A stretch of 64,000 bases of DNA from Rhizobiales bacterium IMCC20636 (lineage in GTDB: Bacteria > Pseudomonadota > Alphaproteobacteria > Rhizobiales > GCA-2746425). The DNA is taken from the NCBI GenBank assembly GCA_016865015.1, contig CP018226.1, positions 3,937,001-4,001,000 of the forward strand, given 5' to 3'. Positions 10,653 to 13,308 of the stretch are shown here, piece after piece (position 1 is the first letter of the stretch; each line of letters opens with the position of its first letter). Position numbers and translations under genes: made by a program. The notes beneath the pieces are model-generated. The model was given only the letters and a program-made list of their open reading frames with translations. It had not been told where the DNA came from and did not search any database.

Positions 10653-11447
10653 TCACCAACGGCTATACCCAGACCTCTCTGCCTCTTCTTCAACCATTCG
10701 ATCATCTTTAACTGTGAGTAAAATAAGCGCTTCACCATCGCCAGTTTTTTTTGCTTGTTCAAAGATTTCGTAATGCCGAGCCTCAGCCCGATCAAACCAA
10801 GCGTCCGCCCCAATGACTTGGGGAGACCTGCCACCATCGGACTGGCCAAACACCACGTCAAATGCCGAAGTCTCTGGATCCAATTCGCCCTGTGGGAACC
10901 ATCTTTTGTGAAACATCGGCGCTTGGGTGAACCACTTTCGTCCTTCCTGCGCATGACAGATCAGCATGCATGGCCAGATGTCTGCCTCAACCAGTCGGAT
11001 GGCTGTGGCTGACAAACTAGTGTTAAACTCGGTTGAGAAGTGTTCAATAACTTTGAATGTCAGCTTTTTGTGATCACGAGCCCTTGGTTTAACTAAGTAA
11101 TGCGGCATCAATAGCGAAGCGGCATATCCATTAGCTACGCGTTCAGTGAGTTGCCGATGTCTCGGCTGGTAGTCTTCAACCCGACATTGAAGCTTTTTGC
11201 CTCGATGATAGTGCCAATGCCCCAGCTCATGCGCAATTGAAAACCGCTTCCGTCGATGGCTCCGACTTTGGTCTATGGATATGATAGCACTGTCGCGGTA
11301 CCCAAGAATATCAGCTTCACATCCGTGCAAAGTACAATATTTGATTTCAGCGCCCTGATCGAATGCGATGTCCTCCAGCTCGATTTCCCTAGGTTCAGTG
11401 ACGCCGAGCGACTTTAAGAGTCGCTCGGCAGGGTCAAGAACCTTCAT
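10653..11447 (-). CDS. ImmA/IrrE family zinc metallopeptidase
   Basis: A protein of about 264 residues. A gluzincin HExxH motif (AHELGHWHYH, near residues 72-81) is followed about 30 residues later by TERVANGYAASLLMP, where the Glu is the third zinc ligand and the ANxxAxxLLMP block is the ImmA/IrrE signature. These cytoplasmic proteases cut a specific repressor or regulator in response to a signal, as ImmA does with ImmR and IrrE with DdrO. The ATG at 11447 overlaps the upstream stop by one base (TGATG), so translation is coupled. It is the last gene of a sigma/unknown/peptidase trio, so its likely target is one of the two upstream proteins. It is not preceded by the usual XRE-type repressor. 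Confidence 0.85.
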   Translation of the reverse strand: MKVLDPAERLLKSLGVTEPREIELEDIAFDQGAEIKYCTLHGCEADILGYRDSAIISIDQSRSHRRKRFSIAHELGHWHYHRGKKLQCRVEDYQPRHRQLTERVANGYAASLLMPHYLVKPRARDHKKLTFKVIEHFSTEFNTSLSATAIRLVEADIWPCMLICHAQEGRKWFTQAPMFHKRWFPQGELDPETSAFDVVFGQSDGGRSPQVIGADAWFDRAEARHYEIFEQAKKTGDGEALILLTVKDDRMVEEEAERSGYSRW

Positions 11448-11869
11448 CAAATGTCATCCTTGTCTGGATCAATCACACCAAGACGTATCAAATCATTGTA
11501 TTTGCGTAGAACTTCTTCGTCCGTCAGATCGCTTTCTGTTTCATTCCGCGCAGCCATAGAAAGCCCTTCTGACCCGAAGGCCTGGTCTAAAGCACGGCGG
11601 GCAATGGAAATATCTACTATTTTTGCAGTTACGCCCGCTGGCTGCACTGCTTTGCGACCCACTCTAGCTGCTTCCATCCGCTCTTTACGCGCTAGAATCA
11701 GCGTTTCTTCAAATACGGCCCGCATACGGTCACTGATCGCGGCACCGTCAACGCCAGCTTCAGCGATTTCACTAAGAATTTCTTCATCCGACGCCGCAAT
11801 TATGTCATCGAAAAGCGCATCAGCAAGTGAAATCAACTTCCTCCGTTCGTTGCATCTATTTTTGGTCAT
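11447..11869 (-). CDS. Unknown 140-residue acidic protein coupled to the sigma-like and ImmA genes
   Basis: No family was recognised. The sequence is acidic, probably mostly alpha-helical, and divided into an N-terminal half (LADALFDDIIAASDEEILSE) and a C-terminal half (NETESDLTDEEVLRKYNDLI) joined by an Ala/Arg-rich middle. It overlaps the sigma-like gene by 4 bp (ATGA) and the peptidase gene by 1 bp. This tight coupling implies fixed stoichiometry. By position it is the best candidate for an anti-sigma factor or for the substrate of the peptidase, but nothing in the sequence proves either. Confidence 0.75.
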   Translation of the reverse strand: MTKNRCNERRKLISLADALFDDIIAASDEEILSEIAEAGVDGAAISDRMRAVFEETLILARKERMEAARVGRKAVQPAGVTAKIVDISIARRALDQAFGSEGLSMAARNETESDLTDEEVLRKYNDLIRLGVIDPDKDDI

Positions 11870-12441
11870 AGGATGAATCCATTTTCGATGGCGATGTTTA
11901 TTTTGCGCCGGACATATCGACGCTTACTGCTGAATCCAGTCTGATCCAGCCCCGTTATCTGTTGCAGTTCTGCTCCCTCTGTGCCGCTCAGCATACCGAG
12001 GACGATGAGTTGTGATTCGTCATCACCATCAAAAAGTTCCAATAGTCGGTTTTCGGTTTCTTGGTATTGCTCATTTGTAATCATCCTCGCTTCGGCAGTT
12101 GAATCCCGCTCCCTAGGGGTGATGGCATCCACGTTTTCGATTGTTTCGTCATGTATTGATAGTTCGTCGCGTTGGTTTTCAACTTTTTGAAGCTCGTCAT
12201 GAGCGATGCTACGGATAGCCTCGGCAACAAACCGGACAACACCAACTTTGCGTGGGCATTTCCGCGATCCGGCAATCGCCCGGCAAAGCGCCTCCTGAAC
12301 CAGTTCATCCGGTTCCACGGGATAAATTGCATAACACTGCGCAGCGAATCTGAGGCGCAGCCAATCAGCATCAGTGAAAGCAGCAATGCTTTCTTCAATA
12401 TCATCCCTAGTCAGCACGGTTGATGGCTCCAAGTCGTTCAT
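11866..12441 (-). CDS. Sigma-70 family RNA polymerase sigma factor-like protein
   Basis: A 191-residue protein with the layout of small sigma factors. A region-2-like segment reads PDELVQEALCRAIAGSRKCP and FVAEAIRSIAHDELQK, an acidic linker follows, and a C-terminal helix-turn-helix-like segment (LQQITGLDQTGFSSKRRYVR) stands for region 4. AGAGG lies 9 nt before the ATG at 12441. It is the first gene of the trio with the unknown protein and the ImmA/IrrE peptidase. The similarity to ECF sigma factors is clear in outline, but region 2.3/2.4 is short, so it could also be an anti-terminator or DNA-binding regulator derived from a sigma factor. Confidence 0.7.
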   Translation of the reverse strand: MNDLEPSTVLTRDDIEESIAAFTDADWLRLRFAAQCYAIYPVEPDELVQEALCRAIAGSRKCPRKVGVVRFVAEAIRSIAHDELQKVENQRDELSIHDETIENVDAITPRERDSTAEARMITNEQYQETENRLLELFDGDDESQLIVLGMLSGTEGAELQQITGLDQTGFSSKRRYVRRKINIAIENGFIL

Positions 12442-12483
12442 GCGCTAAAACCTCTTTTCATGACCCTATGCTGAAAAAAAATA

Positions 12484-12513
12484 GTGCCTCGGACAATTTT
12501 TTTGTCCGAGCAC
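12484..12513. promoter_or_regulatory. Strong palindrome between divergent operons
   Basis: CTCGGACAA at 12488-12496 and TTGTCCGAG at 12502-12510 form a perfect 9-bp inverted repeat around five Ts, extended outward by GTG/CAC with one bulged C. It lies between the start of the sigma-like gene (12441) and the Cas2-like gene (12580), so it cannot terminate a known gene. It is more likely an operator shared by both directions or a structured leader of one transcript. Confidence 0.6.
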
Positions 12514-12579
12514 CTAGAACTTCTCCGCATAGGTGGATGAGGCCAGAAATCTGACTGACAGAAAAATTGGGGTAACAAA

Positions 12580-12858
12580 ATGATATACGCAATTAACTAT
12601 GACCTGAAGCAACCAGGACAAAACTACAATAAATTGCACGAAACAATCAAGAGTTGTGGTGCGTGGTGGCACCATCTCGACAGCACATGGCTGGTAGACA
12701 GCGACATGACAGCACAGAGCATCTGGAACAAACTCTCCCGCCACACGGACAAGAATGACCATATCCTGATTGTAGGTATCAGCCGCGATTATGCTGGTTG
12801 GTTACCCCAAGAAGCGTGGGACTGGATCAAGTCTCGCATAACCAAAATGGCAGCATAG
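12580..12858 (+). CDS. Cas2-like ferredoxin-fold protein ('SinR family')
   Basis: A 92-residue protein starting MIYAINYDLKQPGQNYNKLH. The pattern is a first beta-strand ending in Asp8, then CGAWWHHLDSTWLV, ILIVGISRDYAGWLP and a C-terminal Trp-rich helix. This matches the small family often named 'SinR family protein' in genome annotation, which resembles the Cas2/VapD ferredoxin fold but is not the Bacillus SinR repressor. No cas genes or repeats are present. It is followed 13 bp later by a DUF2188 gene with a good AGGAGA ribosome site, so the two form an operon. Function unknown; the fold suggests nucleic-acid binding or cleavage. Confidence 0.7.
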   Translation: MIYAINYDLKQPGQNYNKLHETIKSCGAWWHHLDSTWLVDSDMTAQSIWNKLSRHTDKNDHILIVGISRDYAGWLPQEAWDWIKSRITKMAA

Positions 12859-12871
12859 GAGAGAAAAACAA

Positions 12872-13096
12872 ATGTCAGGCAAGAACCAATATGTCGTGAA
12901 GAATGACGACGGCTGGGGTGTTCGTGGTGAAGGTAACGAACGTCTCACAAAGAGCTTCGACACTCAGCGTGAGGCAATTGTATACGGACGTGACATCGCC
13001 CGCAATCAAAGCGCGGAACTTCGCATCCAAGGCGAGAACGGTCAGTTTCGCGAAGCTTGGAGCTATGGCAACGACCCTCATCCGCCAAAAGGCTAA
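12872..13096 (+). CDS. DUF2188 domain protein
   Basis: A 74-residue protein that is essentially one DUF2188 domain: KNQYVVKNDDGWGVRGEGNE, then FDTQREAIVYGRDIARNQ, then a strand and the C-terminal SYGNDPHPPKG motif. The family is common in mobile and accessory regions, and its function is unknown. An AGGAGA Shine-Dalgarno lies 8 nt before the ATG. It is in an operon with the Cas2-like gene upstream, and a short unknown frame overlaps or follows it. Confidence 0.85.
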   Translation: MSGKNQYVVKNDDGWGVRGEGNERLTKSFDTQREAIVYGRDIARNQSAELRIQGENGQFREAWSYGNDPHPPKG

Positions 13097-13157
13097 ACAA
13101 TGATCAAGGTGAAATATTAGGTCGGACGTTTACCAACGGAAGTTCGTTGGCAAATGT

Positions 13158-13308
13158 GATGACCCGCGACATGATTCAGCAAGTAGAACACACCGTGCGT
13201 CAAGCGGCAGCTTCGTCTGGGGTTCGCGTTCGCAAAACCCACAAGCCCTTAGAAGTTGAAGGATATTCTGATCGCATGAATCGATTTTACATATGGCATC
13301 GGAAGTGA
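13158..13308 (+). CDS. Possible small basic protein, unknown
   Basis: From the ATG at 13158 the frame gives 49 residues (MTRDMIQQVEHTVRQAAASS and then a basic stretch ending in YIWHRK). The frame stays open upstream to a TTG inside the DUF2188 gene (13057), giving up to 83 residues. There is no clear ribosome-binding site for either start. The amphipathic helix followed by a basic tail looks protein-like, but the evidence for expression is weak. Confidence 0.35.

Follow-up and report, generated by a model that had tools for sequence, protein, structure and literature searches.

A conserved gene trio of an ECF-like sigma factor, an acidic protein and a CapP-like peptidase with paired promoters: a candidate local switch of bacterial immune operons

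Three overlapping genes in a 64,000-nucleotide stretch of the genome of Rhizobiales bacterium IMCC20636 (the whole of this stretch is referred to as the window) encode a protein with homology to ECF sigma factors, an acidic middle protein and a CapP-like M78 metallopeptidase. The same trio is linked in the same order in relatives, where it often lies opposite an immune operon with a pair of matching promoter-like elements between the two. It is likely that the cassette is a self-contained switch in which the protease frees a dedicated sigma factor, turning on the cassette and the divergent operon. The sigma factor would recognise both back-to-back promoters, one serving the sigma-middle-peptidase genes and the other serving the divergent operon. 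In the resting cell, the sigma factor would be held inactive by the middle protein. A damage signal, most likely single-stranded DNA (ssDNA) by analogy with CapP and PprI, would activate the peptidase, which would cut the middle protein and free the sigma factor, and the freed sigma factor would set up a positive loop raising both operons. The peptidase would act as the sensor, the middle protein as inhibitor and substrate, and the sigma factor as the output.

How potentially lethal immune operons are kept off until they are needed is an open question in bacteria. Three families of DNA-damage-responsive regulators of immune operons, CapW/BrxR, CapH+CapP and CapK+CapS, are described in the available portions of a recent article (PMC13373217, June 2026), and no mention of a sigma-based regulator of immune operons was found in those portions. 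No description of the trio was found in the full-text literature, a search with bioRxiv preprints and most subscription journals outside its scope. The CapP protease family and the protease/anti-sigma/sigma logic are already known separately. It is reasonably probable that the trio represents a further general family of local immune-operon controllers, and the first with an M78-released sigma factor, that is, a portable sigma/anti-sigma/CapP module with a private bidirectional promoter placed before CBASS, Pycsar, ubiquitin-like and unknown operons. With a sigma factor at its core, such a module would bring immune operons under positive control that amplifies itself, and its promoter signature would ease the finding of controlled operons. 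If the proposal is true, operons of unrecognised function under the module, for example the Cas2-like/DUF2188 operon of the window, are candidate immune systems.

The gene cassette and its products

The first-pass annotation of the window described a gene trio with overlaps of 4 bp and 1 bp, and three minus-strand ORFs with these overlaps were found (Table 1). The first and second genes overlap by 4 bp, and the second and third by 1 bp when the third gene is read from the ATG at 11447. From this start the peptidase is 264 aa long, and from the TTG at 11450 it is 265 aa long. Among 18 annotated plasmid loci of the trio inspected by eye, the sigma and middle genes overlap in 16, and the middle and peptidase genes overlap in 16.

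Table 1. Positions of the genes and putative promoters in the window
Feature	Position	Strand	Remarks
CapP-like M78 metallopeptidase gene	10653..11450	-	PADLOC capP, solved CapP, invariant HExxH site
Middle gene, candidate anti-sigma factor and substrate	11447..11869	-	140 aa; conserved in 34/34 trio loci
ECF-like sigma factor gene	11866..12441	-	191 aa; TIGR02937, PDB profile match, Foldseek
Putative trio promoter	12465..12495	-	TGTCCGA-N17-GCATAGG; exact motif
Putative divergent promoter	12503..12533	+	Same elements and spacing; exact motif
First gene of divergent operon	12580..12858	+	92 aa; homologues at other trio loci
DUF2188 protein, second gene of divergent operon	12872..13096	+	Pfam DUF2188 8.1e-23
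Small conserved ORF, possible third gene, start uncertain	13057..13308	+	Similar 70-aa ORFs in the same place at L030, L031 and L039 (by eye)

The product of the third gene, recognised in the first-pass annotation as a metallopeptidase, matches Pfam Peptidase_M78 (E 9.4e-16) and the PADLOC capP model (E 3.3e-58). The profile of its family found the solved structure of CapP (7t5t) in the PDB at 2e-20, with IrrE weaker at 2.6e-10. As in the M78 peptidases IrrE and ImmA, a HExxH zinc site is followed by a downstream glutamate, and these residues (H74, E75, H78, and E103) are invariant in the 29 rows of the peptidase alignment. E103 is presumably a zinc ligand. The PADLOC capP model matches all 29 trio peptidases in the alignment, from which L004 was excluded for one TGA within the matched stretch (first search). 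Also invariant is R67, seven residues before HExxH, corresponding to R85 in the ssDNA patch of the ssDNA-activated PprI (accessible text of PMC10904395); an equivalent arginine is also present in other IrrE-type proteins.

In a quick tree built from 79 peptidases, those of the 34 trio loci fall on one side of a branch with SH-aLRT support of 99.8, and the trio peptidases are a single clade, a branch of CapP with other partners. A search of 398 genomes with the PADLOC capP model gave matches in 80, with loci taken from the best places only, and neither a sigma gene nor a middle gene was found in any of the 28 other capP loci (window and remnant left out). An upstream HTH-like (CapH-type) ORF was seen by eye in 20 of the 26 other capP loci above 125 bits, with six having no assignment, and this agrees with the first-pass annotation, which noted that ImmA/IrrE peptidases mostly have an XRE-type repressor as their partner.

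The first gene had been called sigma-like, and by profile its product is an ECF-type sigma factor. The protein of the window matches NCBIfam TIGR02937 (sigma70-ECF) over residues 29-182 with an E of 9.1e-8, and among PDB entries the profile of the family found the ECF factor SigH of M. tuberculosis (E 1.5e-5). Both the sequence and the predicted fold show sigma regions 2 and 4, though the TIGR02937 score of 31.9 bits is below the curated cut-off of 42.9. Within the family, TIGR02937 was matched at E <=0.001 by 15 of 31 members, and Pfam Sigma70_r2 at E 0.01 by only 9 of 31. The predicted model of the protein has a pLDDT of 78.3 and a pTM of 0.45; in a Foldseek search with this model, the titles of the first 11 rows all name sigma factors or complexes that contain one, with a best E of 0.016 and none at <=0.001. 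The -35/-10 promoters that go with an ECF factor, including one for its own gene, are present at the level of motifs.

The middle protein had been described as acidic, which its calculated pI of 4.69 bears out, and no family was recognised for it. No match below E 0.04 was obtained for the protein of the window in Pfam, NCBIfam, PADLOC or PHROGs. Pfam run on all 31 rows of the middle-protein alignment gave scattered matches to 1-2 members each (best E 0.00098) and no anti-sigma family, and a PDB profile search gave one low-complexity match at E 0.0065 and otherwise none below 0.1. The predicted model is all-helical and of low confidence (pLDDT 72.2, pTM 0.32), and Foldseek with this model matched no solved fold (best E 3.2). 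No match to a known anti-sigma domain was thus found in sequence or fold (Pfam, PDB profile, and Foldseek with a model of this pTM). Two residues, A106 and R108, are invariant in all 31 rows; they belong to a conserved AAR motif (residues 106-108), which is a candidate region for the cut.

Alternatively, the sigma factor itself may be the target of the peptidase, or the middle protein may serve as co-activator or adaptor, in which case the peptidase would terminate the response instead of starting it. The lack of a match to any anti-sigma family and the fact that the three proteins are linked by operon coupling only both speak for this, but the known M78 regulators CapP and PprI remove an inhibitor upon damage (accessible sections of PMC13373217 and PMC10904395), and by analogy with them such a role appears unlikely. 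The middle protein is preferred here as a candidate anti-sigma factor that would be cut by the peptidase, with ssDNA as the probable trigger.

Conservation of the trio

Conservation of the trio in other bacteria had been put forward in the first-pass annotation as a check, and the three genes recur in unchanged order in 34 loci, the window included, so the trio is not a chance arrangement. Near copies of L034 (L035 and L036) were dropped, and close kin remain among the 34 loci (L043/L050, L046/L056, and L034/L053). The loci were gathered by similarity of the peptidase and not of the partners, which were then scored with profiles of the three proteins. The sigma and middle genes lie upstream in all 33 non-remnant loci with a peptidase of at least 217 bits (the window and 32 others), and neither occurs in any of the 24 weaker M78 loci (<=177 bits) of the order search. 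Three further trios (L062, L070, and L071) were added later. The trio was found in none of 40 further M78 loci in viral contigs, and phage records gave one weak generic M78 match.

Two candidate exceptions to the linkage were rejected. L063/L141 scores 253 bits and has no partners; profile positions 1-20 are missing from it and the sequence upstream is foreign, and L063/L116/L141 is a 5'-truncated remnant of a trio peptidase. L060 consists of broken pieces only.

The trio occurs in Alpha-, Beta-, and Gammaproteobacteria and in one Acidobacteriota MAG (L033). It is rare, with 4 of 249 genomes in the order and, at E <=1e-40, 2 of 385 genomes in the class, the genome of the window being counted in both. 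In the phylum, 2 of 398 genomes were found at E <=1e-40, one being that of the window and the other carrying the remnant locus.

A back-to-back promoter pair

The intergenic region between the cassette and the divergent operon of the window contains TGTCCGAG-N16-GCATAGG on each strand, back to back. The exact motif has two copies in the genome of 4,790,321 bases, both at this site. A relaxed motif (<=2 mismatches) gave 45 matches in the whole genome against 36 for a reversed control, a figure so near the control that weak further sites are inseparable from chance, and no wider regulon is claimed.

Of the 33 upstream regions of the trio, 18 contain the strict divergent pair, which was found neither in 606,410 control bases (103 loci) nor in any of 9,900 shuffled regions. 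A relaxed pair is present in 30 of the 33 regions, two of the picks (L043 and L050) being poor; in these two, the matching divergent site by eye seems to lie further upstream. No relaxed pair was found in L051, L054 and L062, and by eye L051 and L062 have a different -35 element, TTTCTGAAA-like, on both sides. The promoter-pair DNA pattern was also met in four viral contigs, where no trio is present and the occurrence is chance-like.

As read from the sequences, the putative promoters of one locus change together, and their pairing is conserved in layout. Among the 22 loci with a -10 pick that starts with GCA or GCC on either side, 15 have GCA on both sides, 7 have GCC on both sides and none is mixed. 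Within loci, the two -10 octamers have 5.53 of 8 letters in common, compared with 4.49 after shuffling (0 of 20,000 shuffles as high). The spacers agree as well, in 4.5 of 12 letters compared with 3.35 (again 0 of 20,000), and since base composition and the perfect repeat of L071 are among the sources of this, part of the -10 agreement may share that source. A consensus-free search gave 14.0 of 17 shared letters within loci and 12.6 across loci (p 1.1e-6). Upstream of the sigma gene of L071, both divergent promoters form a near-perfect long inverted repeat, spacer included.

The central gap, from one -35 box to the other, takes values of 1 to 57, and the -35/-10 spacing values of 15 to 19. A variable gap together with a near-constant spacing is the layout expected of a pair of promoters served by a single sigma factor, not of a fixed dimeric operator. 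The sigma-like protein may nevertheless be a repressor-like DNA binder on the paired sites, the peptidase cutting it or its complex with the middle protein and both operons being derepressed. This is in keeping with the paired sites being inverted copies of each other and with CapP relatives that cut a repressor, as reported in the available part of PMC13373217; it is quite unlikely, as the sites have the -35/-10 form and spacing of promoters, the alignment of the protein to ECF sigma factors covers both conserved regions, and its model ranks sigma factors first. Release of a sigma factor that would act on both promoters is the reading kept.

Neighbouring operons

A recognised immune-type operon lies on the divergent side of 18 of the 34 trio loci (Table 2), as judged from annotations, PADLOC and Pfam scans, and similarity. 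The suggestion in the first-pass annotation that the pathway may respond to phage attack fits the immune operons adjoining the trio in many relatives.

Table 2. Genes on the divergent side of the 34 trio loci
Divergent side	Loci	Locus names
CBASS	6/34	L033, L034, L040, L045, L053, L059
Pycsar cyclase and TIR effector	2/34	L004/L119, L052
Ubiquitin-like operon with E1/ThiF protein	9/34	L037, L043, L049, L050, L054 (remnant only), L055, L057, L062/L120, L071
ThiF and patatin	1/34	L051
92-aa Cas2-like gene	10/34	Window, L002, L003, L029-L032, L038, L039, L041; also L040 before its CBASS genes
DUF2188 without the 92-aa gene	2/34	L046 (behind IS21 element), L056
Something else or nothing readable	4/34	L042 (DUF3892), L044 (Beta_protein), L058, L070 (contig edge)

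In the window itself, the divergent operon consists of the 92-aa Cas2-like gene, the DUF2188 gene and perhaps a third small gene, and is not a known immune system. The name Cas2-like for the 92-aa protein comes from annotation and not from a profile match. Ten further trio loci, L040 among them, have a homologue with 61-83% identity on their divergent side, the gene being the first of the divergent operon in 11 of the 34 loci, and its family has no Pfam or PDB match. The alignment of the group (A6) also took in L056, an unrelated row at 18% identity. The small ORF that follows the DUF2188 gene has no Pfam match.

Several loci join features of these groups. On plasmid pDE of the laboratory strain Cereibacter sphaeroides 2.4.1 (L040, 51905-68687), the trio lies opposite the Cas2-like gene together with CBASS nucleotidyltransferase and SAVED genes. 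A DUF2188 gene that is 64% identical to that of the window (L119:6788-7009, minus strand) is promoter-proximal before a Pycsar cyclase. A gene for a protein with E2-ntca and E2-Crich domains (L052:2556-3350, minus strand) is flanked by the genes of a Pycsar cyclase and of a Pycsar TIR effector. At an Azospirillum trio, the divergent gene (L044:5636-6814, minus strand) encodes a Pfam Beta_protein (2.1e-33) and is a candidate immune gene by position.

That the cassette is a plasmid addiction or maintenance module, with the immune neighbours as passengers of the same islands, is very improbable. In its favour, plasmid records make up 20 of the 34 loci, a share raised in part by the inclusion of a plasmid collection in the search, and the trio is present in one of the five genomes of the genus and absent from the other four. 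Against it, the neighbours start at a second, matching promoter, with the strict pair in the share of regions given above, and the peptidase belongs to the family of a known regulator of immune operons.

Relation to known regulatory systems

Several known systems resemble the trio in part. CapP has been described as an ssDNA-activated protease that destroys a transcription regulator (PMC13373217, seen in excerpt), and in the CapH+CapP pair (Lau et al., 2022, as cited there) CapP cuts the repressor CapH. Like the trio in many relatives, this pair has a CapP-family peptidase on the promoter side of operons of the CBASS, Pycsar and Bub types, as far as the accessible text goes. The pair has the HTH repressor CapH, whereas the trio has an ECF-type sigma factor and the middle protein upstream; the trio peptidases also form a clade of their own, and the predicted mode of control by the trio is activation instead of derepression.

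CalpL/CalpT/CalpS of type III CRISPR systems is a tripartite protease/anti-sigma/ECF-sigma immune switch (available text of PMC11417357), and the trio would be like it if the present reading is right. According to the same text, CalpL is a Lon-SAVED protease triggered by cA4, whereas the protease of the trio is an M78 zinc peptidase. Unlike CalpL/T/S, the trio also lies beside CBASS, Pycsar and ubiquitin-like operons.

CapK+CapS and CapW/BrxR also control locally, from beside interchangeable immune operons (CBASS and Bub among them), as the trio would. They consist of a kinase with a STAS-wHTH repressor and of a WYL repressor, respectively, and neither has a sigma factor in the part of PMC13373217 at hand. 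PprI/IrrE of the PprI/IrrE-DdrO system of Deinococcus shares with the trio peptidase the M78 fold, the HExxH site and the arginine seven residues before it (R85, equivalent to R67 in the trio). PprI/IrrE cuts a genome-wide repressor, as stated in the accessible part of PMC10904395, and IrrE fits the trio profile less well than CapP.

Outside the window, the same genome has a second, partial capP-like match at G000:C1:3277721-3278227, which covers profile positions 82-242 with an E of 3.5e-24.
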